Positions 94 to 63,972 of a stretch of DNA of 64,000 nt are shown here, one piece after another. The stretch is from Branchiostoma floridae (Eukaryota; Chordata; Leptocardii; Amphioxiformes; Branchiostomatidae). The stretch is taken from assembly GCF_000003815.2 (NCBI RefSeq), contig NC_049988.1:4161738-4225737 (forward strand), given 5' to 3'. Each line of letters opens with the position of its first letter. The stretch's first letter is position 1. The notes under the pieces are model-generated. The model had not been told where the DNA came from. It ran no database searches and saw only the letters and a program-made list of their open reading frames with translations. Both the position numbers and the translations under genes were made by a program.

Positions 94-235
94 CTCGTGG
101 ACATCCCCTAAACTCGACCCTGAGACTGATGCCGCTGTGCCAGGCTGTGGGCAGCAGACGGACAGTCTTCACCAGAACTGCTCTGGGCAGGTAGTTCTCT
201 ACTACACTGCTGTCATCTGTGTTAGCCTCAAACAA
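94..235 (-). CDS. E81: F5/8C copy 1, exon C
   Basis: Phase 0 to 1. [20 protein letters not shown] to [11 protein letters not shown]. It ends at a GT donor, so at least one more exon lies beyond the window's low-coordinate edge. Confidence 0.9.
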
Positions 236-3200: not shown

Positions 3201-6200
3201 CTCACCATAAGGACATCCCCTGAACTCTGCCCTCAAAGCGATGCCGTTGTTCCAGTTGGTGGGCAGCAGTCGAACCTTCTGTACCTTCACTGCTTCTGGC
3301 AGGTGGTTCTCTACAATTCCTCCATCGTTGAAATTGGCACCAAAGATCTACAGAAACGACAAAATATATAGTTAGCAGCCTAAGAGCTTTTCATATACAG
3401 TACCAGATTAAAAAGTGACAAGAGAAAGAGAGTTACTCAGGTACCATTCTGTAGTTGCTTGCAAACACAGGTTTCTACTTGTAATTTTTGCTGACCTCGG
3501 GTTCCCCATTCTTGTCCTCCACAAACTGCCACAGTAGTGAGTCTGCTGAGTACAGCAGTTTGAACTCTGACACCCACTTGTCCTCCCCACCACTGCCCTG
3601 GGTCAGCACACTGGTCAGCTGCACTGGCTCAACAAAGTCAACCTGGGCACAGAAGGAAGAGAGTTTGAAATATTTTGAAATAGATATATTGTGCCTGAAT
3701 GACTTCAAATGATTGTGGTATAACATCCACTGGTGTACAGAATATGCAAACTGGAATCAAAATGAACAAAATGGACAGAATTTGAGCAGATTGTGGTATA
3801 ACATCCATTGGTGTACAGAATATGCAAACTAGAATCAAAATGAACAATATGGACAGAATTTGAGCAAAATGGAAAAAATACAAGGTACAGAAAGTGCAAA
3901 ATGGAACAAATTCGAAAACAAAATCGAATGAACTATCAAATAATATAACTGACATAAATTGATGGAACAGTATTGTGGAAGAATTGGAATAAAGAAGTGG
4001 GTGGCAAAGGAAAATAACTCATTGTATCATTTTTTCGTTCTATTTTGTTCAATTTTGCTCCACTGCATTCTATTTTGTTCCATTTCACACTTTATGTGCA
4101 TACACAACCATTATATCTAAATGGCTAACACGTTGATCTAAGTACTTTACCTGCAGCCACTGTCCCTCAGTGTCCTCTTCAGGCTGCCAAGACGTGACCA
4201 CTTCCTTACTGTCTGGCCTGCTGACAAGACGAGCCTCCTTGGGCTCCTTCTCAGCCTTGTAGGAAGAAGCAGTGATCTGGTCGTCTGAGACAGAGCGATC
4301 TTCAAGACCCATCTTCACATCACAGATACCTTCAGATTGGAAAGAAATTGGAGAGATGCTTTTCAATGTGGAAAATATGCTTTCAGTAATAGAGCTTTAA
4401 AACCACAGTGTTCTCTTTTTAGTTTCATGATAATGGAAATTATATGCTAGAAGTAACAACATCAGTACTGTCTCACCAGGAGTGGTGACCTCTGCTGTAG
4501 TTGGGAACTTGGTTGTGTAACTTGGCATCTTCTTAGTCGTCCATTCTGGCTGTGGAGACTCGGTTGTCTCAGGGGCAAGTGTGGTCCCCTCCTCTTCTAC
4601 AATTTTGTAAATGAAGTATAGTAGTCAAATTTTCAGATATTTATCATACCCGAAAATAATATAGAACTAGCATGGTCTGTCCCTGGTGCTGAAATTTCAG
4701 TGGTAATTGAATCAGTTGTTTTAGTTTCTTATTTTATGATTTCAGAAGCTAAATATTGCCATATTATACAGCTCTTTAGTAAAACATTCTTCACAAATAT
4801 ACGGATTAAGATACACAAAGTTGCAGATTCACCATAAGGACATCCCCTGAACTCTGCCCTCAGAGCGATGCCGTTGTTCCAGTTGGTGGGCAGCAGTCGA
4901 ACCTTCTGTACCTTCACTGCTTCTGGCAGGTGGTTCTCTACAATTCCTTCATCGTTGAAGTTAGCACCAAAGATCTACAAAAAAGGCAACAAATGTAACT
5001 AACATCCTTAGAGCTTTTCATATACAGGGTCGGATTAAAAAGTGACAAAAGAGAGACATTATATTTGGAAATATTCTGCACTTGCTTGCAAACACTGGTT
5101 TTCTACTTGTAATGTTTGCTGACCTCAGGTTCGCCATTCTTGTCCTCCACAAACTGCCACAGTAGTGAGTCTGCTGAGTACAGCAGTTTGAACTCTGACA
5201 CCCACTTGTCCTCCCCACCACTGCCCTGGGTCAGCACACTGGTCAGCTGGACTGGCTCAACAAAGTCAACCTGGGGACAGAAGAAAGAGAGTTTGAAATC
5301 TTTTGATATAGAAAGATTGCACTTAGTTAACTTCAAAAAGGAATTGTGGTATAACACCCACTGGTGTACAGAAAGTGTGAACTGGAATGGAATGGAACAA
5401 AATACAAAGCAAAGGGAAATAAAATTGATGGAAATATAAGACAACAGTACTGTGAAAGGATTAAAATGCATACGTGGACGGCAAATGTATATAACACGTT
5501 TAATCTTTATTTTATTTTAGTTTGTTCCTTATCAGACTTTCTGTATATTTTATTTCCTTTCATACACATCTTTTTTGCTTTAGTGCATTCCATTTTGTTC
5601 CATTTTGCACTTTCTGTACACCCAGTATATGTAATGGCTTCGGTGTTGATCTAAGTACTTTACCTGGAGCCACTGTCCCTCAGTGTCCTCCTCAGGCTGC
5701 CAAGACGTGGCCACTTCCTTACTGTCAGGCCTGCTGTCAAGACGAGCCTCCTTGGGCTCCTTCTCAGCCTTGTAAGAGGAGGCAGTGATCTGGTCGTCTG
5801 AGACGGAGCGGTCTTCAAGACCCATCTTCACATCACAGATACCTTCATATTGGCGGAAAAATTCATTTTTAGAGATGCTTTTTAATCTTGATAATTGGCA
5901 TTCAGTCAGATGGCTTCAAAAATACTCTTTTTAGTCTCATGATAATAAAAAAAATACGCTAGACATGACTACATCATTACTATCTCACCAGGAGTGGTGA
6001 CCTCTGCTGTAGTTGGGAACTTGGTTGTGTAACTTGGCATCTTCTTAGTCGTCCATTCTGGCTGTGGAGACTCGGTCGTCTCAGGGGATAGTGTGGTTCC
6101 CTCCTCTTCTACAATTTTTGAAAATAAGCATAGTAGTCAAATTGTGAGATTTATGTTGTACATGACAATGGTGTAGAAGTACCAAATCACCAATATTACA

Positions 6201-9200
6201 TAATTCAAGTATGGAGTATATAGAACTGACCTGCTCTGTCCCTGGTGGCTTCAGTGGTAATTGAGTCCATTGTTTTAGTTTCAAATTATGATATTTCATG
6301 AACTAAACATTGTCATAGTGTACAGCTTTTTAGCAAAACCATCTTAACACATAAGCAGATGAAAATACACAAAGTTGGACATTGTTAAAAATAAGTCTCA
6401 CCATAAGGACATCCCCTGAACTCTGCCCTCAGAGCGATGCCGTTGTTCCAGTTGGTGGGCAGCAGTCGAACCTTCTGTACCTTCACTGCTTCTGGCAGGT
6501 GGTTCTCTACAATTCCTCCATCGTTGAAGTTAGCACCAAAGATCTGCAAAAAGGCGACATATGTAGTTTTCTCATCCTTTGACTTTCCATATCAATGATA
6601 CAGGATCAGAGTAAAAGAACAAAGAGATTTTTAAGGAAACATTCGGCACTTCAAAACACTGGCTTTCTACTTGAAATTTCTCACCTCGGGTTCCCCATTC
6701 TTGTCCTCCACAAACTGCCACAGTAGTGAGTCTGCTGAGTACAGCAGTTTGAACTCTGACACCCACTTGTCCTCCCCACCACTGCCCTGGGTCAGCACAC
6801 TGGTCAGCTGGACTGGCTCACCAAAGTCAACCTGAGGACAGAAGGAGGAAGGTTTAAAATCTTTTGAAATACATATGGATTGATTGTGCTCAGATAACTT
6901 CAAAAGATTGTGGTATAATTGCCATCACTTAACAGAAATTGTGAAGTAGAACAAATTGGAACTAAGTGGGGTGAAAAGGAACAAAACGGAAAGTACAAAA
7001 AGTGCAAAATGGAACGAAATGGAAGGAAATAAGAAGCAAACAAAAATAAAATTGATGGAAATATAAAGAAACTGTACTGTGGAAGGATGAAAAGTACAGT
7101 AGTGGGAGGTAAATGGTGGAAGGATCAAAGAATAAAAAAGTCGGCGGTAGATGGATATAACACGTTTTATCTTAAGTCATTACATCTTGCTCCAATGCAT
7201 TTCATTTCACTCCATTTTGTTCCATTTAACACTTTCTGTACACCCACACCCATTATATTCTATGAATAACAGGTTTATCTAAGTACTTTACCTGCAGCCA
7301 CTGTCCCTCAGTGTCCTCTTCAGGCTGCCAAGACGTGACCACTTCCTTACTGTCTGGTCTGCTATCAAGACGAGCCTCCTTGGGCTCCTTCTCAGCCTTG
7401 TAGGAGGAGGCAGTGATCTGGTCGTCTGAGACGGAGCGGTCTTCAAGACCCATCTTCACATCACAGATACCTTCATATTGGTAGAAAAATCTATTTAGAG
7501 ATGCTTTTCAATGTTGAAAATGTGCATTTAGCCATAGACCTTCAAATATAGTGTTCACATTTTAGTTTCATGATAATGGAAATTATATGCTAGAAGTAAC
7601 AACATCAGTACTATTTTACCAGGAGTGGTGACCTCTGCTGTAGTTGGGAACTTGGTTGTGTAACTTGGCATCTTCTTAGTCGTCCATTCTGGCTGTGGAG
7701 ACTCTGTCGTCTCAGGGGCAAGTGTGGTCCCCTCCTCTTCTACAGTTTTGGAAATGGAGTATAGTAGTCACATTTTCAGATAAGTATCATACCCGAAAAA
7801 ATATAGAACTAGCATGGTCTGTCCCTGGTGCTGAAATTTCATTGGTAATTGAATCAGTTTTTTAGTTTCACATTTTATGATTTCAGAAGCTAAATATTGC
7901 CATTTTATACAGCTCTTTAGTAAAACATTCTTCACAAATATACGGATTAAGATACACAAAGTTGCAGATTCACCATAAGAACATCCCCTGAACTCTGCCC
8001 TCAGAGCGATGCCGTTGTTCCAGTTGGTGGGCAGCAGTCGAACCTTCTGTACCTTCACTGCTTCTGGCAGGTGGTTCTCTACAATTCCTTCATCGTTGAA
8101 GTTTGCACCAAAGATCTACAGAAAAGAGAAAATATGTAGTGAGCACCCTAAGAGCTTTTCATATACACTAGCAGATCAAAAATTGATGAGAGAGAGAAAA
8201 AGATTGTTTTAGGTAATATTCTGCACTTGCTTGCAAACACAAGATTTCTACTTGTAATTTTTGCTGACCTCTGGTTCCCCATTCTTGTCCTCCACAAACT
8301 GCCACAGTAGTGAGTCTGCTGAGTACAGCAGTTTGAACTCTGACACCCACTTGTCCTCCCCACCACTGCCCTGGGTCAGCACACTGGTCAGCTGGACTGG
8401 CTCAACAAAGTCAACCTGGGGACAGAAGGAAGAGAGTTTGAAATATTTTGAAATAGATATATTGTGCCTGAATGACTTCAAGTGATTCTGGTATAACATC
8501 CACTGGTGTACAGAATATGCAAACTGGAATCAAAATGAACAAAATGGACAGAATTTGAGCAGATTGTGGTATGACATCCATTGGTGTACAGAATATGCAA
8601 ACTAGAATCAAAATGAACAATATGGACAGAATTTGAGCAAAATGGAAAAAATGCAAGGTACAGAAAGTGCAAAATGGAACAAATTCGAAAACAAAATCGA
8701 ATGAAGTATCAAATAATAAAACTGACATAAATTGATGGAACAGCATTGTGAAAGAATTGGAATAAAGAAGTGGGTGGCAAAGGAATATAACTCATTGTAT
8801 CATTTTTTCGTTCTATTTTGTTCAATTTCGTTCCACTGCATTCTATTTTGTTCCATTTCACACTTTATGTGCATACACAACCATTATATCTAAATGGCTA
8901 ACACGTTGATCTAAGTACTTTACCTGCAGCCACTGTCCCTCAGTGTCCTCCTCAGGCTGCCAAGACGTGACCACTTCCTTACTGTCTGGTCTGCTGTCAA
9001 GACGAGCCTCCTTGGGCTCCTTCTCAGCCTTGTAGGAGGAGGCAGTGATCTGGTCGTCTGAGACGGAGCGGTCTTCAAGACCCATCTTCACATCACAGAT
9101 ACCTTTCGATTGGCAGAAAAAACATATATAAGATTTTTTGCATTAAGAAAGCTTTTCAAAGGCTGATAGAGAACACGCAGCTTTAGAAATTTAGATATAT

Positions 9201-12200
9201 TGACCTTTCTTCTTTCAAAAATTAACAATGTATGCTAAAATTCATAACATCAGTACTATCTCACCAGGAGTGGTGACCTCTGCTGTAGTTGGGAACTTGG
9301 TTGTGTAACTTGGCATCTTCTTAGTCGTCCATTCTGGCTGTGGAGACTCTGTTGTCTCAGTGGCAACAGTGGTCTTCTCTTCTTCTATAATTTGTGAAAT
9401 AAGTACAGTCATTAATATTTTGAAATTTCGTATTGTAAGTCAATACGGTATTGAAGCACGAAATCACCAACATTACATCATGCAAAGGTAGCTAGACTCA
9501 GTTACAACGGAAACCAATTGATTAACAGTGGGTTCGATGGAAGGGTCTTGAAAATAAAAGAAGACTGATATGCTCTGTCCATGGCGCTGATGGTAATTCA
9601 ATCAGTACTAATACTTTTATAATGATGATTATTTCTCGAGATTACCGTTGTCATATCATGCAGATTGTTGGGAAGGTTATTTTTCATACAAAGACAGCTG
9701 GCAAAAATTGGAAATTTCATGCAAGAAGCCCTACCATAGGGACATCCCCTGAACTCTGCCCTCAGAGCGATGCCATTGTTCCAGTTGGTGGGCAGCAGTC
9801 GAACCTTCTGTACCTTCACTGCTTCTGGCAGGTGGTTCTCTACAATTCCTTCATCGTTGGAGTTTGCACCAAAGATCTACAAAAAAGGCAACATATGTAG
9901 TCAGCATCCTAAGAGCTTTTCATATAGAGGGTCAGAGTAAAAAAATGGCAAGAGATATCATTTCAGGAAATATTCTGCATTTCGTTGCAAACACAAGTTT
10001 TCTACTTGTAATTTTTGCTGACCTCTGGTTCCCCGTTCTTGTCCTCCACAAACTGCCACAGTAGTGAGTCTGCTGAGTACAGCAGTTTGAACTCTGACAC
10101 CCACTTGTCCTCCCCACCACTGCCCTGGGTCAGCACACTGGTCAGCTGGACTGGCTCAACAAAGTCAACCTGGGGACAGAAGAAAGAGAGTTTGAAATAT
10201 TTTGAAATAGATATATTGTGCCTGAATGACTTCAAATGATTGTGGTATAACATCCACTGGTGTACAGAATATGCAAACTGGAATCAAAATGAACAAAATG
10301 GACAGAATTTGAGCAGATTGTGGTATAACATCCATTGGTGTACAGAATATGCAAACTAGAATCAAAATGAACAATATGGACAGAATTTGAGCAAAATGGA
10401 AAAAATGCAAGGTACAGAAAGTGCAAAATGGAACAAATTCGAAAACAAAATCGAATGAACTATTAAGTAATAAAACTGACATAAATTGATGGAACAGTAT
10501 TGTGGAAGAATTGGAATAAAGAAGTGGGTGGCAAAGGAATATAACTCATTGTATCATTTTTTCGTTCTATTTTGTTCAATTTTGCTTCACTGCATTCTAT
10601 TTTGTTCCATTTCACACTTTATGTGCATACACAACCATTATATCTAAATGGCTAACACGTTGATCTAAGTACTTTACCTGCAGCCACTGTCCCTCAGTGT
10701 CCTCCTCAGGCTGCCAAGACGTGGCCACTTCCTTACTGTCTGGTCTGCTGTCAAGACGAGCCTCCTTGGGCTCCTTCTCAGCCTTGTAGGAGGAGGCAGT
10801 GATCTTGTCATCTGAGACAGAGCGGTCTTCAAGACCCATCTTCACATCGCAGATACCTTCATATTGGCAGAAAAATTCCTTCTTAGAGATGCCTTTCAAT
10901 GTTGATAATGGCCTTCAGTCAGATGGCTTCAAAAATCCTTTTTTTAGTCTCATGTTAATAAAAAATATGCTAGACGTGACAACATCAGTGCTATCTTACC
11001 AGGAGTGGTAACCTCTGCTGTAGTTGGGAACTTGGTTGTGTAACTTGGCATCTTCTTAGTTGTCCATTCTGGCTGTGGAGACTCTGTCGTCTCAGGGGCA
11101 ACAGTGGTCTTCTCTTCTTCTATAATTTGTGAAATAAGTGCAGTTTGTAATCTTTTGAAATTTTGTATTATACATGAATGCAATATTCAAGCACGAAATC
11201 ACCAACATTACATCATGCAAATGTAGTTTGACTTAATTACAACAGAACCCAATTGGTTTGTTATAAGGTTGATGGCAAGTTCTACAGATAAAAGAGGACT
11301 GGTATGGTCTGTCCCTGGTACTGAAGCTTTGATGGTAATTGAATCAGTAGTTATACTTTCAAAGTATGATTATTTCTTGAGATTATCATTGTTATATCAT
11401 GAAATTTGTTGGAAAGTTTTTTATACAGGTGGCAAAAATTGGAAATTATCATGCAAGAAGCCTCACCATAAGGACATCCCCTGAACTCTGCCCTCAGAGC
11501 GATGCCGTTGTTCCAGTTGGTGGGCAGCAGTCGAACCTTCTGTACCTTCACTGCTTCTGGCAGGTGGTTCTCTACAATTCCTTCATCGTTGGAGTTTGCA
11601 CCAAAGATCTACAGAAAAGACAAAATATATAGTTAGCACCCTAAAAGCCTTTCATATACACTACCAGATCAAAAAGTGTCAAGACAGAGAGAGATTATTT
11701 TTGGAAATATTTTGCATTTGTTTGCAAACACAGGTTTTCTACTTGTAATTTTTGCTCACCTCAGGTTCCCCATTCTTGTCCTCCACAAACTGCCACAGTA
11801 GTGAGTCTGCTGAGTACAGCAGTTTGAACTCTGACACCCACTTGTCCTCCCCACCACTGCCCTGGGTCAGCACACTGGTCAGCTGGACTGGCTCAACAAA
11901 GTCAACCTGGGCACAGAAGGAAGAGAGTTTTCAATCCTTTGATTAGAAAGACTGTGCTTAGTTAACTTCAAGAATAAATTGTGGTATAACACCCACTGGT
12001 GAACTGGAATGAAATGGAACAAAATACAAAGCAAAAGGAAAAAAATGTTAGAAATATAAGGCAACAGTACTGTGAAAGGATTAAAATACAGACATGGCAG
12101 GCAAATGCATATATTAACATGTTTAATCTTTATTTCATTCTATAGATCTAGTTTGTTCCTTTTAACAATTTCTGTACATTCTATTTCCTTCCATAATTCT

Positions 12201-15200
12201 TGCTTTAGTGCATTTTATTTTGTTCCATTTTGCACTTTCTGCACACCCATGATATGTCATGGCTACGGTGTTGATCTAAGTACTTTACCTGCAGCCACTG
12301 TCCCTCAGTGTCCTCCTCAGGCTGCCAAGACGTGGCCACTTCCTTACTGTCAGGCCTGCTGACAAGACGAGCCTCCTTGGGCTCCTTCTCAGCCTTGTAG
12401 GAAGAAGCAGTGATCTGGTCGTCTGAGACAGAGCGATCTTCAAGACCCATCTTCACATCACAGATGCCTTTTAATGAAAAATAATAAAAAATTAATACCC
12501 CTGGTATATATAGTAATGCATATCATAACAGGTTCATTTTCTATCAGAAAAGACCATGGGGATAGGAACAGAAATTCATTCTGATACTATCGATATGATG
12601 AAATATTGTAGTTCTGACACAAGAAAACAAACAAATCAACAAGATCAATTTTTCCCCATTGTTTGATGATGATCAGAACTCTGATTCATTAAGTGTTGCT
12701 CATGTTCATGAACTATGCCGGCCCACTTTTCAAACTAACGGAACCACCATTGGGCATTGTAACTTCTCTTTTATGCTTTTCAAGCCATTACATAAGTCAA
12801 AGGTTACAGTCTTTCATTACAATTGAAACGGAATAACAATTATTGATCAGTTTTCTTACCTGATGTTGTAACTTCAGGATTTGTAGGGAACCTTGTTGTG
12901 TAAGATGGGATCTTTGTTGTCTGTACCAGTTCTGGAGTGGTAATCTCTGCAGATGGTGTTGTCTCAACTGGATTGAAAAGAACCAAACTTTTGACTCCTA
13001 TTCATATCATTTTGAGACAAGTATGCAGCCTTAGAAACAAGATAGAGCTCACTCATCCTAAGGCTTACAATACATAGGAACTTCTTTGGTACATGTTTTT
13101 TGCTACATAAAAACATATGTCAACATTGTACGCAAACTGTTAACAAATTACCACATATACATGCATGTAGTGCAAAGAGTCTTCTAGCAGAAATCTGCTA
13201 GATCCTTTCTCCATGATGCATAAAACAAAAAGACCTACACATCAAGAATGATGTTAATAAAGTAACAAAGACTGATATCACAGATCGTACGACTGCTAGT
13301 CAAGCTGTAAACACTGATCGCCTCTGCAGTCAAAGTTACCTGTATCATTAATGCTGTTATGGTATATTGTATTGTTACCAGGGCTAGCCCTTGATAATAG
13401 CCTCTGGCTAGTTGGGTAGCCCTGGCTGTATTTCTCATGATTGTACAGCTGAATAAATCAAATCAAATCAAAAAAGCTACGTTCATGCTGTCAAAGGAAG
13501 AGACCCACCAAGTGGCACCTCCTGGGTGGAAACAGGTGTTGGTTTCAGAGTTGTTGTTGTGGTTTTCGTTGTCTTGGTGACGATTGTGGTCTTCATAGGA
13601 GCTGCTGGGGTCGTCACTTCTGCGGATGCTGTTGTTGCTTCAGGTTCTGCACAGTACAGGTATAGCAAGTTTCATTTTTTTTTTCTATTTCTTTGTAAAG
13701 AACACGGAAGTAATCGACTTTTATAAGATTGGATTCTTACCTTGTCAAAGTCCTACTATACCTGTAACGTTACAATTCTATCAACCTGTACTATTTGCAG
13801 ACTTTATATAATGTAGAAGTGCATGTTACACACATTTGCTATGTGCATGCTGTTAATTGCTTGCTGTAACTGTCTGGTTTGGATGCAATATATGAATGAG
13901 TTTTCTGCTTTGCATGCAATATATGAATGAAAAGTTCAATAAGTTTTCAATGCGATTTCAAGACTATGCTCAAAATTGGGATAATTTGCAGAGAAAATTG
14001 TACATACCAACTTCTGGTGCCTTGGTGGTTCTTTCTTCAACAGTTTCAGTTGTAGTTGTGACAGTGGTGACCGTTACCAGCTTGGTTCCCTCTGTGGTTG
14101 CCACAGATTCTGTGGGTTCTGGTTTCCCTGTGTATTCTGGTTGTCCAGTGTATTCTGGTTGTCCAGTGTGTTCTGGTTGTCCAGTGTGTTCTGGTTGTCC
14201 AGTGTATTCTGGTTGTCCAGTGTATTCTGGTTGTCCAGTGTGTTCTGGTTGTCCAGTGTATTCTGGTTGTCCAGTGTATTCTGGTTGTCCAGTGTGTTCT
14301 GGTTGTCCAGTGTGTTCTGGTTGTCCATTGTATTCTGGTTGTCCAGTGTATTCTGGTTGTCCAGTGCTGTACTCTGGGTGTCCTGTGTATTCAGGGCTAC
14401 CAGTGCTGTACTCTGGATTTCCAGTGTATTCTGGTTGTCCAGTGTGTTCTGGTTGTTCAGTGCGTTCAGGTTGTCCAGTGTATTCTGGTTGTCCTGTGTG
14501 TTCTGGTTGCCCAGTGTGTTCTGGTTGTCCGGTGTGTTCTGGTTGTCCAGTGTGTTCTGGTTCTGGTTCAGCTGTCGACCTTGGCTGTTCTGTGGGCTCT
14601 GGCTGTTCTGTCATTGTTGGTTTCTTTGTGTAGTGAGGCTCTGTGTTAAAAACATTACAGAACTAGAGTTCAACGAACCCATCTCTTCGCCAAATAATCA
14701 TGCCTTTATTTAAGACTTTATGGTCTTATTCATGTATTACTAAATAGCAAATGACTGCATGAACTGTGTTCCTCACATGCAAACACACAAACATTACCAA
14801 AACCAGACTGTGACCTGACAGATGACCTGGTAGCATCCCTGGTCAATCAGAATTTCATGCTTGTCAATTTAGACTTTGTCCCCAGTGTAAGGGCGTCCTC
14901 CAGCAAACCATCTGTATAACAGCTGTGTCCATAGATATAGGTCAAAATGAGATATATAGAGCACAGTTTATTTCTGTTAATAAGTTTTGCTGCAGTACCT
15001 TAGGAAGCCGCTAGGGGGCCCACAATCATAATTTATCTTCGTTTTCCTGACCCCTACCCACCTACCAAATATCATCAGGATTTTTTCAAGGCTTCTCGAG
15101 TTATGCATTCCACAAACAAAAGGACGCACACACTCGGCCCACTACCGTCCTAACGGAAAATGCTACGTCAACTATTTTCGAACACAACCTTCTTTTCCGC

Positions 15201-48200: not shown

Positions 48201-51200
48201 CTCTGTGGAGGAGCTGAGAGTTGACTCACTCCAGGGCTGCTTTGTCTCTGGTGCTGGGATCAGGACAGAGATGGAAGAAAAATGAAACTTTAGCTTAACG
48301 TTCTGCAAAAGCAGAGTGTAAAGACTAGCTGACTGCTGCCTACCCCTGCGTCAGGGATCCCAGCAGCAGTATAATCTAACCATGGATAGTGAGTGTGTGT
48401 GAGTGAAAAGTCTATTCACATGTTTGGAAGGAAAACACTTCCTACATTAAGATGGTGACTAGCTTAACTAATCACCATGCATACAAAATACCCTTTTTCA
48501 TTAAAGTTGTATATCAGCATAGCTCAGCTATTGAACTCACTTGTTGCAGTTTCTGATGTTGTTGTCAGCTCAGAGACAGTGGTGGCTTCTATAGAGAAAT
48601 TAATAAAGAATACATGTTTTAGTACTCGTAACTAAGTCAGATTTTAGCAACCAGATAACTACCTGTCTAGCACCACATTTTGGTGCTATTATATACAGCT
48701 TAATTTCAGCACCAAGGACAGGCATGTCTATACTGCATATCTTAACATTCTATTGTGACAGTTAATCTGACAATGGCAGAATTAGTCCAAGCATAGAACT
48801 AATCATTCTTTAAACCACAAATTTCTAAACTGTTCTTGGAGTTAGCATTTGTTTTTAAAGTCTGCTAAAATCAGTAGTTTATAAATGATAGATATACAAC
48901 TTATTCTCCAAGCAGAGGTTGGGTCAGGGGGATAGTAGTAATTGAGATTTCTTTCCGCTTCCTCACCTTGGGGAGAGAAACAGTTAAAGTCACAACCACT
49001 CCTTGCCAACTCAGCTGAAACCTCTTATTGAAGAATATATAGTATTACACAATCCATCAAGATGGTGTCACAGTGACACAGTTGTAGGCAAAAACGCAGG
49101 TCGCAGACAAAAGATAGATTCACATGTTCACTAGTAATTTGGTTTGCCAACTCAAAAATTAATAAGATTTGCCAATTAATTTTACCTACCAGGATGAAAA
49201 CAAAAACAGCAATTTCTCATGTATCAACACTTACCATAGGCGTAAGGGCACCCGATGAACTCCAGCCTGAGAGCTGGGGCCTGTTCCCAGTCTACAGGCA
49301 GCACACGGACGTACCGGGCAACAATGGTGCTGCTGAGTCTGTTCTCAACCATACTGTTATCATTGGTGTTGGCATGGAAGATCTGTATAACACAAGAGAA
49401 ACAAAATATCACGAAAATGCAAATTAGGAAATACCTGTGTAGTTAGATAGTCAAACAAAATGCACTAAGTTAGTTTATTTTTGTAAGGATTTGAACTTCC
49501 TATAAGGGTGAAAATGAGTTTTTGATACACATGATAGGGTTTTGGTAAAAAAACCTCTGTAGTAAAGCAGTGATACAATGCAAACACACATGCCCAGAGT
49601 TACGATTTTGCAGTGGACAGGTCTTCTTAAGAATTGTAAAAACAAAACTCTCACAAACATTTAAAGTTTAACAGTATGCAACAATGTTCCTCAGCTGGTA
49701 AGAAAAACAGCATCTAGGAATATGTTCTACCAGAATTGAGTTTCAAGAGAATGGCATGTTTAGAATAGAGTTAGTGTTATCTCACATAGGATGTGCAGAT
49801 GCTACATGTTCAAGAAGAATTGCAGTAAATAAAAACAAAAGTCTGGCCACAAACCTTTGGTTCTGGTGATGCCTCCTCTCCCTCCTCTAGTGGCTCCTGT
49901 TCTGTGTAATCCAGCCAGTTTTCACCATCTTCACTGTACTGTACAGCAAACTTGGTCACCCACATCTCAGAACCTGTCAGTTAAAGATAAAAAGTAACAA
50001 TCTATGAGACAAGGAAGGATGTAGATCTCTTTGTTTGATATACAATCTGTGTACATTATGTTTGTCTTCTGGTTTGAAGAGGTGGTTATATTGCAAGTTC
50101 AAGATAAGATCCAGAATTGATGAAAATTCAATAACAAAGACATATTAATTTTAATTCCTGTCATGCTGAGTTTCTTTTTCTTGCTGTTATGACAATGCAT
50201 CGTTATCAGTCAGTAGCTATATAGGGCAAACTATATCAGTTGCTTTAATTTCCAAAACAGGGTATTTAGGAATATTTTCAAAATACTGCAGTTTGAAACC
50301 ACAGTCCATCAACTTGATATCCCTAAAAAACTGTTTTTAAAAACAACAATGTTTACCCCACAAAGGCAAACTAGTGTTACAATGTTTATACATAGATGTA
50401 ACCATGCTTGAAAGAGTTTGGAAGCAATAGCAATATTGAGCAATATTGTACCACCTCAATAGTTTTTTAACAATTTTTTGTCAAAAATACTTGGCAATGC
50501 ATAGAGAATAGGAGTGGATACAACAATTAGCAAAGGAAAATGATAGTCCACCTCAGTACAATAGCAGCTACTTGACTGTGGCAACTATGATTATTATGAC
50601 GATACTTCTCCTTACCTCCACTGCCCTGAGTGGCAATACTGGTGATCTTGGTTGTCTCCATGAAGTCCACCTGTATGTACTCCTCCTTAGGCAGACTGTC
50701 TGGCTGTGGTGCCCATGGTTTCCCTGCCAGTCTCCCCAGACCAGGGCTGCCGGCTGACGAGTAGCTGATCTGTTCATCAGGGATGGAGCTGTCCTGGAGG
50801 CCAAGCTTAGCATAGCAGATCGCTGTAGAAGTGGGATTACCAGTTAATTCTTGTAAACATTTCAGGATGAGTTGTAAGAAAACATATTTCTACAGGGACC
50901 AGTGTGCAAAACAAACTTTGTGATCAAGTGAAATTTCATGTACAGCATAACTTGACATACACCTTATACATAAAGAAAGTGGTACAAAAATGCTTCATTT
51001 TGCCTCTTTTTGTCCTTAAATGAAAGTGGATTTATGATCATTTACACTCACCCTGTGTTGTAGTTGTCAGCTGAGGTGTGGTCTTTACAGGAGCCATGGT
51101 CGACACCTTTGAAGTTGCTAATCAAAACAATTTTTTCAAGTTTAAGTTAAAGAGCAACGTGATTTCCTTCAAGTTCTAGTTCTTCAAGTTCTAGTATATC

Positions 51201-54200
51201 TATTGGAATGAAAATTGTTTTTCTCGTAAAGAAAAATATATGAATGCTACTTACTGTACTGTGGCTGCTCTGTTGTTGGTGTCTCAGTGGTTGTCACTGG
51301 AAATGAAAGGCATGAAGATTTTACATAAGACATGAAATAAATTCAGCAATCATAAAAAAAATAACTTCTGTGACATTACTTGCAGACGATGTAATCAATA
51401 AGAGTAAAGTAATAAGTGTCTTACCTGTAGACTGACAGTAACAGCAACCATCTTCAGGTGTGTTGTCAACAAGCTCTTCATCCTTGAATAGCAAAAATGA
51501 AGGGGACAAAAAATCATCTTTTAATTATTAGAAATTTTAAAATGTCAAAAGGTATCAGAGTGAATGTCTCATGATACAATTACATTTGTGTCAGTGCCTG
51601 AAGGAGGTGGAGGCTCCATATTTCACAATCATGTCACTGTGTCTTTTTGTTGCCGGGTCCAGGGTTGATTTTAACTGCCATTTTAAAAAAATGGGGTCCT
51701 TGCTGTGCCCCAATATAGCCTGGTAGCTGCAGGCTGTCTCATGCCATGGGTCCCCAAAGTGATCAAAATACAGCCCGTAAACTATCTGTTGGGATCTAAA
51801 CTACAAATTGTGATCGTAGCAATACAAGTGGATCCTTTACAATTACTATAATGGTGATTCTACCTGCTCTGATACTGGCTGAAAATGATAAGAACTTTAT
51901 TGCACGACAATTGTACATGGTACAAAGTATGGCAACAACTATTACATAAAGTACAAAATAGAGGTATAGGATAAAGCTTAACATCATAGTTAACATAACA
52001 ATAAGCCTTAGGGCTAATATGCATAATTCATTCATATAGTATCATAATGAAGTAGGCTAATCATTAGCTTAAGTATTCTTTCTAATAGCAAAGCAGTCCT
52101 TGATATATTTGCCTATTTTCGCATTATGGGAGTTCTGACATCTAAATAAATGTGCAAATCTGTCTGTAGCATCGAGTCTTTTGAAATATGTTGTACTTGC
52201 TTCGAGAAACGTGAATAATTTGTTGCGTAAACTAGCGTATCTAGAACATTCCATTATAAAATGAAATTCATCTTCAATATGATTTGGGCAGAATGGACAG
52301 AACCTTTGGTCATGGGCTACATTGTGGTATCTGCCTGTTTCAACATTCAACTTATGGCTACTAATTCTTAACTGAGTTATTGCTTTGCGAATCTCAAAGT
52401 TATCTATATTATAAAGGTACATTTCTTGTTCATAGCATTCTTTTGATTTGCTAAGAAAAGACAGTTTTGAATTGTTTTCAATAGAACTAAACCACTCCTG
52501 TACTAGTATGTATATATCTTGTAGCCTCGTGCACAGTTGGTTAGCAATATAATCTGTTTTATAAGCCTCAGGTTTCGTCCATATTTGCCCGAGGCCGTGG
52601 TAACAGAGAATGTCCTTAACATGATTAATCCAGTCTTGATTATCAGTAAATACAGTGTTGTATGCATCGCCAAGTAGCGAGTCCTCAGGTAAGTTTACCA
52701 AACGGTGCCAGTATTTAATGAGCTGAATGATAAGTGGATAGATATGTTGACTGACCTGATCACACTGGATGTTACATCGACGTTCACACACAGCCTGGTA
52801 GTTCTCACATCTGCAGAACCTGCAGGAACCAGCCTCCCAGCTCTCACCAGGCTACAGGACAGTCAAATCAAACATCAATTCAACAAAAGTCATATATTTG
52901 TATCAATGTGATTTTACTACTTCTAAGGAAAAGTAAATGTTTAAAAATATTTTCCCTTAAGTGGAATATTCTTCAATCAGTGATACTTTTGAAAGGCATC
53001 ATAGCCGCCATGAATATGTACCTCCAAATGTTTGATGCCACGGTATACCTTGCTCATGGAGTAACCAAGTCTCGTTAGAGAACAGACCTAAAATTTGCAT
53101 AGATCAAAGAGGCAGGTAGCTCAGAAGATCTACACAAATCTAGGACCTACACTTTTTCTCTCACAAGACTAGATCACACCATAGATAAGACATACTGTGA
53201 TATCAAAAATTTGGAGGTCTGTGTAAAGCTCTTTTTATGTTAGGATCAAGAATGGATTGGTTGGTTGGTATTTCCAATACCTAACTCCATTATAGTAGCA
53301 GGCACAGTTGGGGGGGGGGGGACTTTTTGCAAATAACAGAATCAAGAAAACTTGGTAGGTTTGTTTATAATAACCTTATGTTTCCATACCTCATATCTAA
53401 CTCCGTCATAGTAGAAGGCGCAGTTGTTAGGCTCAGCCACACAATAATGATAGATTGAATCAAAGTGAGTTGTAGTAGATAACAGAGTCAAGAAAACTTG
53501 GTAGGTATGTCTAAGCTTATATTTCCATACCTTATATCTAAATCTGTCATAGTAGCAGGCACAGTTGGTGGGCTCGGCCACACAATAATGATAGATTGAA
53601 TCAAAGTGAGTTGTAGCAGATAACAGAGTCAAGAAAACTTGGTAGGTATGTTTAAGCTTATATGTTTTCATACCTCATATCTAACTCCATCATAGTAGCA
53701 AGCACAGTTGGTGGGTTCGGCCACACAAGTCACAACAATGTTGGATCAAATCAAAGTGACTTGTAGCAGATAACAGAATCAAGAAAACTTGGTAGGTACG
53801 TTTAAGTGTGTTCCTATACCTCATATCTAACTTCATCATAGTAGACCACACAAGTCACAACAATGTTGGATGAAATCAAAGTAACTTTTTGCAAGAATCA
53901 AAGTCAAGAAAACTTGGTAGGTATGTCTAAGCTTATGTTTCCATACCTCATATCTAACTCCATCATAGTAGCAGGCACAGTTGGTGGGCTCGGCCACACA
54001 GTGGGTACCCTTCCAGATGTAACCACTAGGACAGGGCTGACACTCTGCACCACAGGGGGCGGTCAGGTCACAGGTCGTGGAGCCGTCACAGCGCTCCTGG
54101 CAGTAACATGCTGGGGAACACACTGGGGAGAGAGGTACAGAATGCAGAATTTTAGCTAGGATCTTATCATAGGGGGTCCATATTTCATGGTTAGTTGCAG

Positions 54201-57200
54201 TAAGTGATATAGGACTGGTGCGATTATTGTAGGGGGCTTTGGGGGCATCCATCTTCCATAGAGTTTTCAAGAATTTTAAGTTAAAATGGTGCATTCTAAG
54301 GTATCCTGAGGGGCAAAATTACTGTCAGAGAGGTCACAGTAGAAGACTGTGACCACAAATGACCTATTGGCATCCCAATTGGGATTTTATGCTTGTCAAA
54401 GGATCTGCTCCCCACTGTAAGAGCATCTAATGTGTCCAATTTCTTGCTATTTTAAGAAAAGCGCATCCAAATGATGCCATGAGGCATGCCTGACAAAGTG
54501 TAGAATGATGATTTTGACTTATACCTTATCTATATATAGTCATGAGTATAAAAGATGGTTTCTAAAGCTTGCTGCTTGTTTAGATTGTACCTTTTTAAGA
54601 CACATTTAGGGTTCAAAGCCAGTGTCACACAAAAGAAAAATAGCTTGCCTGACAAGTCTAGATGTGAAAGTAAAAGTAAAGGTGGTGACATAGTCTGTTT
54701 CTTTGTAGAAGTCAACTAATGCTGAAGTCAATCTTGACACATGTGTGTATGGTTTGATTAATGATATGTCAGTTCAAGGTTTTTGGCCAGCAAATTCTAA
54801 AATTAGACGATACAGTAGCTACATGTACATACAGACAAGCATCTGCATGTAAACAAAAAGAAATTTTACTTGCTACCTATAACCAAAAAAAGAAATGTAC
54901 TGACTACAAATTGAATTCTCAAATGTAGAAAATTGAATATCGACAATGGTTTATGAGCCACCTTTTGGTGTTGTTGACTCAGGCAGCACAGTAGTGCCAG
55001 CTGGGCTTGTATAGGCCGTGCTGAACACAGGTGCAGCTGTAGCAGGTGCAGTGGTGGCAGGTGCAGCAGTTGTAGGTGCTGCAGCTGTAGGTTTGGCAGT
55101 TGTAGCTGGGGTCGGCACACACTCACAGCACCTGTCATCTGGGTACATCTGGATTATAAAGCCCTGGGGAGACAAAAAGAAATTGATAGTAATTTATAAT
55201 TGATATGAGGATTTTTAAAATGTATACTTTTATTTTATACAGCAAAATATATTTTACTCACCATATCAGAAAGCAGAGATGAGGATGATCATCATTGATA
55301 ATACAGAAATCTAAAGCATTAAGATGTGAAGAAAATTAGGTACAGTCAAACCTGTATTAGCGGCCACCTTTGCATAACGGCCACCTGCCCATAGTGGCCA
55401 CTTTTTGTCGGTCCCTTGGATTCGTAATGATTAAGAAATAGGCTTAGCGGACACCTGTCCAACGCGGCCACGGCCACACGATTTCCGGTCCCGCAGGTAC
55501 AAAAACACTGCCGATTACGGCCACGCGGACCGCTGATCTATGTTTCGGCACGCGTTCGGCCATATACAGCGGCCGTATCGTCACCCTACGCCGGATTTAA
55601 AACTTCTTTGACTTATTTTCAAAAAAAAACTTCGTAAACTGGAGCTACCCATACCCGCTGACAAACGAGGTCATATAAGGTCAACAGACGACACCAACAT
55701 TACGGAGATAAATTGTGTTAAAGTTACGTTCTAATACACTATCGCTTAGGTTAATTTACATCACAAAAATGTCTACATTAACTGTTACAAAGACAAAATG
55801 ATATGAACTTCGGACTATAGTGGATTTTATTGTTACATTTATTAAGAGATAAGTCTAAAATGACGAGACTTTTCTTGTGAGTAACACATTAGCATAATGA
55901 ACGAATCTGACGTGTGAACGCGAGCGGGAACACACGGACGGCGAAGTATCAAAGGATACAAGACGAAAGATCAAAGAAATATGACGATGCGGGTCTCTTC
56001 AGACAATATCAACTGTAGAACATTTAAAACTTTTTATAGCTTTTGTTTTCTTAATACATATAGTGTAAAAATCATTGCAGTACATGTACAGTACTGTATT
56101 ATGTGAATAAAGATCAGTGGGTACTAAAACCATGTGTAACTTATTGCTTGTGGTCAACTAATTAGCATATTCTCTATAGTGGCCACCTCTCTATAGTGGC
56201 CAATTTTGACCAGTCCCTTGAGTGGCCGCTATAGACAGGTTTGACTGTATACATGTACATGGAAAAGTTTGCCAATTTGCTATCTTCATTGCATTATAGC
56301 TTCACCAGCATAAGCATTTGTATCTATCCTCTCATGTCTTCTTTTTACTTTACTAATAAAAAAGGAAAGGTTTGTAAAATTGGGATCTTCTAAAAACTTG
56401 TCAAGTTGTCATCAGAATGTAAGTACTCTATCACACCTCGGTGTTCAGCACCAAGGACAGACACTTATATCATGCTTTTTACTACATCACTCAAACTTTC
56501 AGGTCACAAACATACTCTGTTGGTTGAGCTTCCTACATTATCTAAGGAGGCTCTGTACTGACCTCTGCACAGTTGTCATAGCTGAGATCACAGGCCTTGT
56601 TACAGTCCACTTGACCCTGGTCACAAACACACTGCTGGCACTCACTCTCCATCCACATTTCACCATGCTGGAGAATAAGGGTTGTAACAACATTAATGTC
56701 GTACCTGGGCCGTGATAACATTCAAACATTCTCACTTCTGACACATTTCATATTGAAATGTATGTATTCTTCTAGCCATATAGGCTATTATATTGCTTAT
56801 AAAATACCTGTGTTAACTGTTACAAAATAGCCTAGTTCAAGACATATAATTCCTTAACTAGCAATTAAGCCTACCAGAAAGCCACTACAGCGTATCACGC
56901 AAAACAATAATATTGCAGCACGTTTTATTCAAATCCATTTACACATTATCAACTTAACTAAATTATCAATTTGTTATTGGTAATTGGCAATAGGTATCAA
57001 AAAAATTAGAGAGAAACAAAATGCCTAGTAGAAAAAGATTACAGTTTGTTTAAGCCAAAAGCTTTTCTATGTCACAAAGAGTGCATTGAACTTTGTAAAG
57101 TCAACCACAAACAAGATAAATCTTAAAAACATTCTTCTTATAATTAAGGCTAACATAAACATTAACTTATGATATATTGCTACAATTAGCTGGACAGGGG

Positions 57201-60200
57201 CTTCATCACTATCTTTTATAATTATCCAATAAAGCAATAACTAAAAAATCTTTTATGGATTGACCTATCTAATGTATAAATTGGTAAGTACTAGGGCTGG
57301 GTATCGGTACAGCGTACCGGTACAAAACCGGTTTTTCTTATTGGACCGGTCCAGAAAAACCGGACCTGAAAAAATTGGGTGGACCGGACGTTGGACCGAT
57401 TAGAAAATTAAGAGATTATTTTGTCAGGCATTCACACGTTTTGGCGCTTGTAGGTGGAAGAAAATAAGAGTGAAGTACTAGAGTAGAGTTAATAGTAATG
57501 TCTACCAAGTTTTACAGCCAATCGTACAGGTGAAGTTAGCGTTGTAGGATTTTAAAACGCCAGTGTAAGTCTCATACTCCACCAAACAGATTTCTTTGTA
57601 GTGAAATGGACCATTGGTATGAGTCATACTGAATCAGGTCCAGGTTCAGGTCCGGACCTGGACCTGATCCTCTGGACCTGAACCTGAACCTGGACCTAAT
57701 TCAGTATGTAATAACTTGTGAATTGACAATACTCAGAACAATGGTCCATTCCGCTACAAAGAAATCTGTTTGGTGGAGTTATACAATGTACTCACCTGGA
57801 ACTCCTTTCCATTGTAGGAGCACACACAGCTGAGCTCATCTCTCCCATCTGTACACTGAACTATCCCGTCACAGATCAGGTCCTCTGATACACACTTTCC
57901 ACAGTCATCACAGGCCATGGACCCAACAGGGCACACACAGGTTTGCCTAAACAAATGAACATTGGGGAAACAATTCTTATAGATTGCATCATACCTGACA
58001 CAAATTAAAGCAACTCAAAACATCTAATCAAAGAAGTCATAACTTTTAAGGTTTTTTTAGGAGTACTGCGTGTATTTTTTTTATTTATTCCTCATTGCTA
58101 ATTTCTTGCTAATGCTCTGTATGTATTTTCCTGCTTTCCTGGGCTAAAGAAGAAGCACAAACTTTATTTGGACCCCAGCCAAACCAGCCTGCAAGTCTCT
58201 AGATAACATCCATTGGCATAATACCGGTCGGTTTACTGCAATTTCTCAAGCAATGCTAATTTGGCAAATGATCAACGCATCATTTTCTCCAGTTACATGT
58301 TGCTGTTACAGCTTACCTTTGCCACTTCTTCTGTGTAAATTATTTTGTCTCTCTGGTCCTGCTAAAAACATAATATCGTAATTGGAACACACCGTGGAAT
58401 TGCACGGAGAACGGGCGCGTGGTTGGAAGGGGGTGCACTATACCGGTCGAACGAAACACAGCACAATTAACTGCCGCTATGTACCTTTATACATCCTCTG
58501 TTGTTCCTTTCTTTCCTGTTAGTAGTTGCACAAAACAAAAATCTGCATGAGCATACAAAAAGTCATGAGAAAATGGGCGTATACTGACAAGAATTTTCAT
58601 TTAATTTTGGTCCGTCACAATCGCTATGACGTAAAACTTTACTGCTGGCCGTAGCATTAAAAATGGCGGGAAAATGGCGGCGTACGTTCAATTTGACCCA
58701 TTCAGCCGTAGATCCGGGCGATAATGCAACGGTTCCTCACACTTTTACACGAGTTGTAGGTCACCAAAAGAAATTCAAGATTGCTGTTGAATCATGCTCG
58801 TCTTGTGCCGTGAGCACATGTGATTATTATCTACAAATCTGGCGATGAACGTGACAGTGTGTTTGTCCCACGACGAGCTCGCCTGCCCCGAAAATGACCT
58901 GAAAACTTTTGGCCTTGTTGTCTTCGAATGCATTGTTATCGATGCTTTGTAAATTATGTATTGGACACCTAGATGTCTGAAGTGTGCATACCTCAGAAAT
59001 AACTATTGTTGCACGTGCAGATCTCTTTAAGCTCCACTATTTTCAATCGACCGGTATAAGGCTTATGACCGGTATTATGCCAATGCATGTTACACAATTT
59101 TCTAAATCCTGTCAGTCAGAAATATCTAAATGCAAACACATACCAGTACAAAAAATTGATATCTCAATATCTATAGATTATGAGGTAAAAATTCTGAGTG
59201 TATCAAGAATTCTAAGTATGAATTTGGCTTCAGGTTAAGCATAAAATTTTGATCTGTAAAGCAACAAACCTGGTTGTGGTCTGCATAGTTGTCTGTGGGT
59301 GAACAGTCTCCAGCTTGTTCTGAGGCCCAGCTGTGGTGGGAATGCCTGCTGTGTTGTGCTCAGGCATTCCTGTGTAGTAGGGCTCAGTCTCGCTCTCTGG
59401 CCTGGTTGTGTATCCTGGTTCAGGTCTGTAGGTACCGGTGTGTTCTGGTTCAGGGCTGTAGGTACCGGTGTGTTCTGGTTCAGGTCTGTAGGTACCGGTG
59501 TGTTCTGGTTCAGGGCTGTAGGTACCAGTGTGTTCTGGTTCAGGTCTGTAGGTACCAGTGTGTTCTGGTTCAGGTTTGTAGGTACCAGTGTGTTCTGGTT
59601 CAGGTCTGTAGGTACCAGTGTGTTCTGGTTCGGGTCTGTAGGTACCAGTGTGTTCTGGTTCAGGTTTGTAGGTACCAGTGTGTTCTGGTTCAGGTCTGTA
59701 GGTACCAGTGTGTTCTGGTTCTGGCTTGTAGGTACCAGTGTGGTAGCTCTCAGGTTTGGTGGTGCTGTGCTCTGGTCTGGTTGTGTGTTCTGGTTCAGGT
59801 CTGTAGGTACCGGTGTGTTCTGGTTCAGGTCTGTAGGTACTGGTGTGTTCTGGTTCAGGTCTGTAGGTACCGGTGTGGTAGCTCTCAGGTTCAGTGGTAC
59901 TGTACTCTGGCCTGGTTGTGTGTTCTGGTTCAGGTCTGTAGGTACTGGTGTGTTCTGGTTCAGGTCTGTAGGTACCGGTGTGGTAGCTCTCTGGTTCTGT
60001 TGTTGTGTAGGGCCACTCTGGCTCTGTTGTTGTTTCCGGTCCAGTAGTTGGGACTGAACAAAGTACATATTCGTGCTTTATATTAGCAAATCTTAGGTAT
60101 GCAAAACATAAACTAGTCAGTTTCATTTTTCAAATTCACTATGGCAGCCAAACTCCACACATAGATACAATCAATAAAGGAAAACATGTGAAGTCTTTTT

Positions 60201-62779: not shown

Positions 62780-62860
62780 TTTTCTTGTAGCAGTGAAGGG
62801 TTGGGTGGTGTACACTGACACACTGGAGAACATGTGGTTCCCTTGAAATGGAAGAATTTT
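62780..62860 (-). repeat. Partial copy of the 5' end of exon E1
   Basis: GAAGGGTTGGGTGGT, GACACACTGGAGAACATG and GGTTCCCTTGAAATGGAAG parallel the acceptor side of E1 (62571-62660) with the middle missing. A partial exon duplication in the upstream intron. Confidence 0.55.
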
Positions 62861-63225
62861 TATTGTTATGTTCACTTGGTACCATGGAATCAACTTATAT
62901 AGTGACACAGAATTTTAACTCTGAATGTGATCTAGTTTCTAATAGTAACTCTGTAACTGTCCAAATATTCAAAAGGTCTGACTTTAAAGTGGTGGTGGAG
63001 AGTTGTGTAGCCACTAGAGATGCAACTTCATCGACTGCACTTCTTTAATCCTTTTTGTGACTGATTAGTTGATTCTACCATCAATTTCACAATATTATTG
63101 TTAACACATGTTGTTCCTTGAAGTTCTTCTTTGCTTTGCATCAGCAAGGCCTTTGACATGCCTGTGACAATTCTACTTGAACTTGAGGATAGTAAGATGT
63201 AAGATAGTATGATTAATAGTAAGAT

Positions 63226-63972
63226 GTCACTTCCGGAGTCCCACAGGGCTCCATCCTAGGCCCACTGTTGTTCGTACTTTACATAAATGATCTACCTGAC
63301 TCGGCTAGAAACTCTATGTCTGACTCAGCACTTTTTGCAGATGATAGCAAATGTTTCAGAGATATCCATAGCACAAATGACTGTTCAAAACTACAACAGG
63401 ATATCTGTTCACTACATGACTGGAGCATAAAGTGGAAGTTGACTTTCAACCTATCCAAATGCATAGTGTTAAGGTTTACACGATCTAAGTACCCCATCAG
63501 ATTTGATTATCACATGTCAAGTTCAAACCTGACTGTAGTGGACAGCATGTCTGACCTTGGCATCACAGTAAAATCCAACCTTACATGGAATAGCCATATC
63601 ATAAGAACAGTGGCCAAAGCAAATCAAATGCTTGGGTTTATCAAGCGTTCCGTAAGTTACAAGTCCAACACTGATATACGTAAGACATTGTATTTGTCTC
63701 TTGTTAGAAGTGTTTTGGAATACTGTTCATCAGTATGGAGCCCAACATCACGTAATCTCACAGCCCTGATCGAGGGTGTACAGCGAAGGGCAACAAAATA
63801 CATCCTCAGGCCCTCCGCTGAACACCTGGACTACAAGTCTAGACTATCTAGACTAGGCTTGTTACCATTGTCTTACCAAAGAGAGATGTCTGATGTTGTG
63901 GTATCCGTTAAGTCCCTTGCAAAGGTATATGATTCAGATCTAGCGAGGTTAGCTGCATTCCCTACATGTTAG
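63226..63972 (+). mobile_element. 5'-truncated LINE reverse-transcriptase fragment
   Basis: Open for about 249 residues up to TAG at 63970. GVPQGSILGPLLFVLYINDL and ALFADDSKCF are RT motifs, the latter with the FADD active-site Asp pair. HDWSIKWKLTFNLSKC, LGITVKSNLTWNSHI and VRSVLEYCSSVWSP follow, as in CR1/jockey-group elements. An in-frame stop at 63220 and loss of all upstream RT motifs show 5' truncation. It opposes the host gene. Confidence 0.85.

Follow-up and report, generated by a model that had tools for sequence, protein, structure and literature searches.

The window, a stretch of 64,000 bases with a G+C content of 40.6% (counted over all letters), carries four runs of N at 20044-20143, 21952-22434, 24472-24571 and 43211-43921. 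Its minus strand contains numerous cysteine-rich and threonine-rich open frames with good splice sites at their edges. Exons were assembled using a custom-written gene finder that combines frame-specific 5-mer coding scores, splice-site matrices and phase bookkeeping. The program was trained on the window itself, starting from 41 peptide seeds chosen by eye and generic splice matrices. Because it was self-trained, its absolute scores mean little and the controls are what count. The best minus-strand parse was a single chain of 94 exons with neither a start nor a stop. Curation removed nine weak exons as unreliable (63762-63825, 62824-62841, 53531-53572, 53390-53431, 51864-51878, 39931-39963, 35718-35735, 35148-35192 and 6231-6248), merged three split repeat exons and lengthened one repeat exon; exon 48967-49023 is weak, yet was retained. 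The curated chain runs on the minus strand from 62643 to 94 and comprises 82 exons, every one of them GT-AG, with 21,191 exonic bases. It amounts to approximately 7,064 codons including N, in agreement with the initial annotation, which put the exons at 81 or more and the residues at over 6,900; 7,012 whole codons lie within exons, 195 of which read as X. The 81 introns have a median length of 430 bases, the longest being 1,687 bases. Rfam detected no RNA gene in the window at its gathering threshold, and ARAGORN found no tRNA.

When phases were left free, the minus strand scored 6,036, whereas three block shuffles gave 110-127, the plus strand reached 694 and the reversed sequence reached 857. 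Exons with a coding score of at least 20 numbered 75 on the minus strand (each of at least 50 bases) versus 6 on the plus strand. The unforced phases of these 75 strong exons agreed in 70 of the 74 neighbouring pairs; permutation of the same pairs gave a mean of 36.3 (sd 3.9) and a maximum of 52 in 20,000. The phase agreement over about 80 junctions that had been noted beforehand thus persists among strong exons when nothing imposes it. With weak exons included, agreement across the whole free parse of 106 exons was 81/105 on the minus strand, set against 36/100 for the plus strand and 38/101 for the reversed sequence. After training on the seeds only, 60 of 65 pairs of strong exons agreed, and 81 of 107 overall. 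Exactly one stop-free frame was present in 56 of the 82 curated exons, and 34 of the 35 junctions at which both neighbours have a single stop-free frame were in agreement (the exception involving the exon that contains the 100-N gap at 20044-20143), although both counts are less independent than the free-phase counts because the exon borders had been set under the phase rule. The minus-strand exon chain is confirmed as real and not the product of chance.

All modules lie on the minus strand and are given here from 5′ to 3′. The first exon of the chain (62347-62643, phase 0-0) encodes a VWC-type tail, a short PTS segment and TIL 1; it is preceded by a strong acceptor, and the gene extends upstream beyond the window. 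Ahead of this exon, on the strand opposite to the gene, lies a reverse transcriptase fragment (63223-63969, plus strand; Pfam RVT_1, 9.3e-10). The chain continues with VWC 1 (60512-60659; Pfam VWC 1.2e-05, slightly under the cut-off), a Thr/Pro-rich mucin-type exon built of 30-base repeats (59270-60053) and an LDLa-like module (57796-57946), recognised by its cysteine spacing and without a Pfam LDLa match, which leads to VWC 2 (56563-56667 and 54962-55163) and its PTS tail. TIL 2 (53947-54122, by eye) and VWC 3 (52756-52851 and 51425-51482) follow, and the piece with VWC 2 and 3 matched Pfam VWC in two stretches (2.2e-10). Two short PTS exons (51052-51296) then lead to F5/8C 1 (50616-50822, 49855-49973 and 49235-49382; Pfam F5_F8_type_C 5.9e-24).

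Two minor features were seen around TIL 2 and VWC 3. A 141-base tandem repeat of 4.8 copies (53321-54000) overlaps the TIL 2 exon in its 3′ part as well as the donor, both of which recur with it in the intron; two of its copies retain an open 42-base 0-0 frame, have no good acceptor and resemble exons in the making. On the strand of the gene, a mostly intronic open frame of 228 codons (52072-52755, minus strand) returned only DUF223 at 0.017 from Pfam and resembles by eye the end of a retrotransposon protein.

Beyond F5/8C 1, a PTS segment leads into WxxW (CysD) 1, the two exons of which (47995-48253 and 47337-47458) meet at an internal phase-2 junction (Pfam Mucin2_WxxW 9.9e-20). Four Thr-rich 1-1 PTS exons (44238-46619) precede exons two and three of F5/8C 2 (42224-42995; Pfam 1.3e-13, profile positions 52-127 of 127). 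The next segment (37649-41926) comprises PTS, TIL 3 (41065-41249, by eye), VWC 4 (40238-40409), PTS, VWC 5 (38784-38882 and 37965-38016) and PTS, with Pfam VWC at 7.3e-07 in two stretches. It is succeeded by TIL 4 (36595-36779), VWC 6 (36021-36116 and 35302-35353), a PTS exon (34920-35071), VWC 7 with LDLa (33632-33923), TIL 5 (32898-33088, by eye), and VWC 8 (32263-32367) with a further LDLa (31506-31665). The piece with VWC 6-8 gave Pfam VWC at 1.6e-12 in three stretches and LDLa at 1.8e-08 in two; the TIL 4 piece matched Pfam TIL at 5.7e-05, slightly under the cut-off, and TILa scored 0.0019 in the region of TIL 5, likewise under it.

After a PTS lead come WxxW 2 (Pfam WxxW 4.8e-23) and, across a further PTS tract, WxxW 3, accompanied by Thr-rich repeats of 24 and 27 bases (30899-31144, 29445-30644 and 28610-29314). 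PTS segments then alternate with TIL-like unit 1 (27947-28129), a PTS repeat exon (27091-27516) and an exon holding TIL-like unit 2, 33-base Thr-rich repeats and the first half of WxxW 4 (25557-26827); the second half of WxxW 4 and more PTS occupy 25010-25393. TIL-like unit 3 (23807-23968, no Pfam match) is followed by a Thr-rich PTS exon of 4.2 kb (19137-23335) composed of 39-base repeats and broken by two runs of N. TIL-like units 4 (18614-18790) and 5 (17227-17439) flank a PTS exon of 24-base repeats (17763-18146), and three Thr-rich PTS exons (16229-16903, 14008-14640 and 13509-13646) lead to seven linker-F5/8C cassettes. Six of these (3206-12967) are nearly identical, each consisting of a Thr-rich linker exon and an F5/8C domain (F5/8C 3-8; 179+147+142 bases; Pfam 1.4e-50 for the first two), although the linker of the first (12860-12967) is divergent. 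The seventh consists of a PTS linker (2655-2858) and F5/8C 9 (1665-1843, 775-924 and 94-235), which shares 54% identity with another F5/8C copy and ends at a strong donor; the gene runs on beyond the window. In total, the chain encodes nine F5/8C domains (six nearly identical), four WxxW (CysD) domains, five short TIL-like units and many Thr-rich tracts in addition to TIL, VWC and LDLa units. The TIL, VWC, LDLa, F5/8C, WxxW and Thr-tract modules listed in the initial annotation are therefore all present, in one orientation and with compatible phases.

Pfam was applied to ten spliced pieces, from which most repeat tracts, WxxW 3 and 4 and F5/8C 5-9 were left out. Over four of the pieces, VWC was matched in eight stretches (one piece being slightly under the cut-off). 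TIL matches, including a second one at 0.042, fell under the curated cut-off, and three of the five TIL domains, like the LDLa-like module, were assigned by eye from cysteine spacing. F5/8C, LDLa, TIL and VWC nevertheless occur together in the chain, TIL being backed by a PDB match. In that search, the best match of the TIL 4-VWC 6 segment was von Willebrand factor (1e-28), with three matching stretches that we take to be its TIL-E units, D′ included. The same segment matched MUC5AC, MUC5B and MUC2 chains (9.4e-13 and weaker), and the best PDB match of the WxxW domain was Mucin-5AC (2e-17). F5/8C matched a snake-venom factor V homologue (1.7e-37), coagulation factor V (3.9e-34), factor VIII (7.9e-32) and neuropilin-2 (9.8e-27); these are the closest solved F5/8C domains, the remainder of factors V and VIII and of the neuropilins being unrelated to the chain. 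The second F5/8C domain of factor V carries a paired-Trp loop that forms its membrane spike. Since this Trp-bearing loop is missing from the query in the factor V alignment, membrane insertion of the factor V type is unlikely.

The five TIL-like units (17227-28129, minus strand) are of about 51 residues and mostly contain ten cysteines. None matched a Pfam family, a single weak TIL_2 score of 0.024 being obtained, and a profile search of PDB sequences gave no match at E 1. The AlphaFold model of the unit had a mean pLDDT of 64 and the best of six PDB fold matches an E of 4.7, which is uninformative. Cysteine spacing and an hhalign probability of 82 tentatively suggest that these units are akin to TIL and may constitute a shortened TIL subfamily.

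VWD, C8, TSP_1, EMI, EGF and CTCK were not matched in the exon pieces submitted to Pfam, both ends of the gene lying beyond the window. A check for missed exons identified 24 open frames of at least 36 residues with usable splice sites outside the exons, shorter exons being invisible to it. The 17 of these that were scanned matched neither VWD, C8 nor TSP_1 and gave only weak, irrelevant hits (best 0.037).

PTS exons account for 24 of the 80 exons examined and jointly contain 25.8% Thr. Tandem arrays have periods divisible by three in 16 of 16 cases within exons versus 7 of 15 outside them, the 31 arrays being our own selection from 49 overlapping rows in which a few still overlap. The six similar F5/8C copies differ from one another at 7 to 20 positions per 465 coding bases, with dN of 0.0055-0.014 and dS of 0.040-0.161 across all 15 pairs. 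Their three domain exons show mean identities of 95.9%, 98.5% and 97.6%, compared with 64-78% for the introns and 84% for the linker exons (a mean that takes in one divergent copy of 108 bases). Among three of the four WxxW copies, dN was 0.007-0.022 and dS 0.028-0.088 in the second halves, and 0.035-0.084 and 0.41-0.80, respectively, in the first halves. These comparisons indicate that the six F5/8C copies and the three WxxW copies are under purifying selection. With dN far below dS, exons more alike than introns and exonic repeat periods divisible by three, we conclude that the repeated copies are maintained as coding sequence, and the Thr content of the PTS exons, the repeat periods and the selection count in favour of a mosaic mucin. 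Gene conversion among the copies may have increased their similarity.

The 81 junctions of the curated chain divide into 50 of phase 1, 29 of phase 0 and two of phase 2. Exons of the 1-1 class number 33 of 82, and every outer border seen of the F5/8C and WxxW modules is in phase 1. Exceptions to the phase-1 rule are found among the TIL-VWC modules, namely the exon that opens the chain (entered in phase 0) and the LDLa-like module at 57796 (entered in phase 2). The chain thus possesses the phase-1-bordered modules of a mosaic protein derived by 1-1 exon shuffling. Active exon shuffling, biased towards 1-1 exons, is described as extreme for lancelets in the cited part of PMC4284660.

Two exons contain an internal break of the reading frame. 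Within the 4.2 kb exon, the frame of the 39-base repeats differs on either side of the 100-N gap at 20044-20143; as a gap of exactly 100 N is usually a placeholder, the difference probably stems from the assembly. A 33-base repeat unit in exon 25557-26827 is a single base short near 25.88 kb (25840-25960), and the frame shifts there. The missing base could reflect faulty assembly or a genuine frameshift; if genuine, it would truncate the allele shortly downstream. Separately, the first exon of F5/8C 2 is absent from the sequence and probably falls in the 711-N gap at 43211-43921. A decaying or inactive locus would have the one-base break as its pseudogene mark, and we consider this highly improbable given that each of the remaining 81 exons has a stop-free frame, that GT-AG is retained at 82 of 82 and that the repeated domain exons tested are under purifying selection.

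Whether the chain represents one gene or several was assessed by varying the penalty for starts and stops. At penalties of -9, -6 and -3 the parse contained no boundary. Removal of the penalty (0) introduced two implausible boundaries, one of them with a start within an F5/8C exon; with a value of +3 the parse fragmented widely. The 81 introns were also scanned for signal-peptide-like first exons by means of a heuristic that recovers 12 of 15 human signal peptides and is blind to those split by an intron. Four candidates at three places were found in the sense direction versus 11 at five places in the antisense control, seven of the latter sitting in one TG repeat. Two overlapping sense candidates near 40.6 kb match the phase of the next exon on inspection, but a start there would deprive a VWC domain of its first cysteines; the remaining sense candidates do not fit the next exon. 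Neither the penalty series nor the intron scan, then, revealed a convincing internal gene boundary. The missing signal-peptide starts are weak evidence of modest power, because a signal peptide split by an intron would escape the heuristic. Poly-A signals in introns (58 sense, 85 antisense) were not decisive.

We probably see the central part of one minus-strand gene, encoding a secreted, disulfide-rich and heavily O-glycosylated mosaic protein of which some 7,000 residues are visible. The case for a single gene rests on one chain having no start or stop until the penalty is removed, on the 70 of 74 phases in agreement, on introns of at most 1.7 kb and on the Pfam and PDB matches. On sequence grounds, the points counted against it are the two breaks of frame within exons, the agreement of only 81/105 once weak exons are included and the lack of the polymerising VWD, C8 and CTCK domains of gel mucins from the scanned pieces. 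The signal peptide and C-terminus would lie beyond the window, and false fusions are known among lancelet gene models (PMC4967905, in the part cited).

A rather different account is that two or more adjacent genes of one tandem family, such as a mucin with TIL, VWC and WxxW next to an independent gene for the F5/8C array, merely appear continuous through their phase-1 borders. Phase agreement supports the reality of the exons more than it does a single gene: with 50 of 81 junctions in phase 1 and 33 of 82 exons being 1-1, modules of neighbouring genes would join equally smoothly. Thr-rich linkers and F5/8C domains are present in two places, and the cited passage of PMC4967905 reports lancelet gene models with fused neighbours that were refuted by ESTs. 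Against such neighbours stands that no intron is longer than 1.7 kb, and the candidate signal peptides offer weak evidence in the same direction, being fewer in the sense than in the antisense direction and, where they fit in phase, cutting a VWC domain. We judge the adjacent-gene account somewhat unlikely. Of the single protein first proposed for this locus, the modules, their orientation, their phases and the lack of a convincing boundary have held; that all modules belong to one protein is, on the sequence, likely, its support being weakened by the phase-1 symmetry.

If the single-gene reading is adopted, all exons would be spliced into one mRNA. The Thr/Ser/Pro tracts of the protein are expected to be O-glycosylated, forming stiff hydrated rods, while the four WxxW (CysD) domains could provide non-covalent cross-links between neighbouring chains, as in gel-forming mucins. 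TIL-VWC-LDLa units would serve as rigid disulfide spacers. The F5/8C array, on its flexible Thr-rich linkers, might make many weak contacts with a glycan or protein ligand, and such binding would attach the gel to microbes, to a filter net or to a surface. This organisation probably originated by repeated copying of phase 1-1 cassettes; splicing could also leave such cassettes out and keep the frame. A lancelet origin of the DNA is plausible, and the mucus net of a filter-feeding chordate would be the obvious location; lancelet endostyle mucus nets are mentioned in an excerpt of PMC6109156, and stiffening of mucus by a poly-CYS protein in one of PMC6861317.

The protein compares with several known systems. 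Gel-forming mucins such as MUC2, MUC5AC and MUC5B likewise alternate WxxW/CysD domains (present in some members of the class only) with large Thr/Ser/Pro repeat exons. The chain differs from them in its added F5/8C and LDLa domains, and VWD and C8 were not found in the scanned pieces (the ends lying beyond the window). In known gel mucins, VWD, C8 and CTCK effect polymerisation, the first two within VWD-C8-TIL assemblies at the N-terminus and the last as a cystine knot at the C-terminus. The resemblance to von Willebrand factor is limited to the TIL-VWC unit; there, such units follow VWD and C8, which were not found here, and no VWA was seen. Hemocytin and hemolectin combine cysteine-rich modules of the von Willebrand type with F5/8C domains and VWD assemblies, and we know of none that has WxxW domains or seven F5/8C domains in an array. 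Chick SCO-spondin, as described in the cited part of PMC8487547, is a giant secreted protein that also unites F5/8C, LDLa, TIL and VWC. Its domain list there gives one F5/8C, 27 thrombospondin repeats, EMI, VWD, EGF and CTCK (PMC8487547), whereas the chain has nine F5/8C domains, WxxW and mucin tracts, and EMI, VWD, EGF, CTCK and thrombospondin repeats were not found in the pieces scanned; the many thrombospondin type 1 repeats typical of SCO-spondin had no match in the 17 other open frames scanned either, a result that holds for the visible part of the gene. EMI and three VWD lie at the N-terminus of SCO-spondin and CTCK at its C-terminus, and both ends of the present gene fall beyond the window. 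Sea star Sfp1, a secreted marine protein, resembles the chain in its TIL and von Willebrand-type modules and differs in their VWD-C8-TIL arrangement, and Sfp10 and Sfp11 share galactose-binding/F5/8C domains with it; WxxW is not mentioned for these three proteins in the cited part of PMC9382459.

The sea star comparison bears on function, since a secreted adhesive of the kind made by sea stars, limpets and flatworms would be as compatible with a single gene as a component of a mucus gel. According to the cited parts of PMC9382459 and PMC8621496, VWD, C8 and TIL are often combined in aquatic adhesives, galactose-binding or F5/8C proteins occur in sea star secretion, and flatworm ap1 contains a C-type lectin domain. 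VWD and C8 were found neither in the exon pieces nor in the 17 of 24 other open frames scanned, and a mucus gel is favoured by the long Thr tracts and by four WxxW domains; we consider a glue unlikely. Equally compatible with one gene, and very unlikely in our estimation, is a relative of SCO-spondin residing in a filament akin to Reissner's fibre. The four shared domain types (PMC8487547) and the origin of the cephalochordate Reissner's fibre from the infundibular organ (PMC8261243, in the part cited) are in its favour; thrombospondin repeats, EMI, VWD and EGF were not matched in the exon pieces scanned, and WxxW is absent from the domain list given for the chick protein (PMC8487547). The best reading is a giant shuffled mosaic mucin of familiar parts in an unusual combination.

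SCO-spondin had initially been regarded as a partial match only and the combination of modules as new to any described protein. The first view underrates chick SCO-spondin, which already joins four of the module types (PMC8487547), so the unusual part is the union of WxxW, mucin tracts and the F5/8C array. The second stands to the extent that the full architecture was not recognised in any paper retrieved by searches of open-licence PubMed Central. We tentatively propose, at somewhat less than even confidence, a kind of secreted protein so far undescribed: one chain, considerably longer than 7,000 residues, that unites a gel mucin (WxxW and Thr repeats), SCO-spondin-like TIL/VWC/LDLa modules and seven or more discoidin domains in a conserved array. 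Splicing or a change in copy number of its 1-1 cassettes would tune the number of ligand-binding heads per molecule. Should the modules reside in one protein, exon shuffling would clearly have brought mucin-gel modules together with SCO-spondin-like and lectin-like ones, and the product would be a definite candidate for a component of mucus that carries its own multivalent binding. Gene-prediction errors are argued in the cited part of PMC4967905 to explain much of the reported lancelet innovation, and the locus provides a clean test of whether large lancelet domain combinations are real or gene-prediction fusions. It likewise permits a clean test of individual variation in the number of tandem F5/8C cassettes. 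As a minor observation on these cassettes, the first introns of three of the six share a 78-base tandem pair (3711-3866, 8484-8639 and 10238-10393), a trace of cassette copying.
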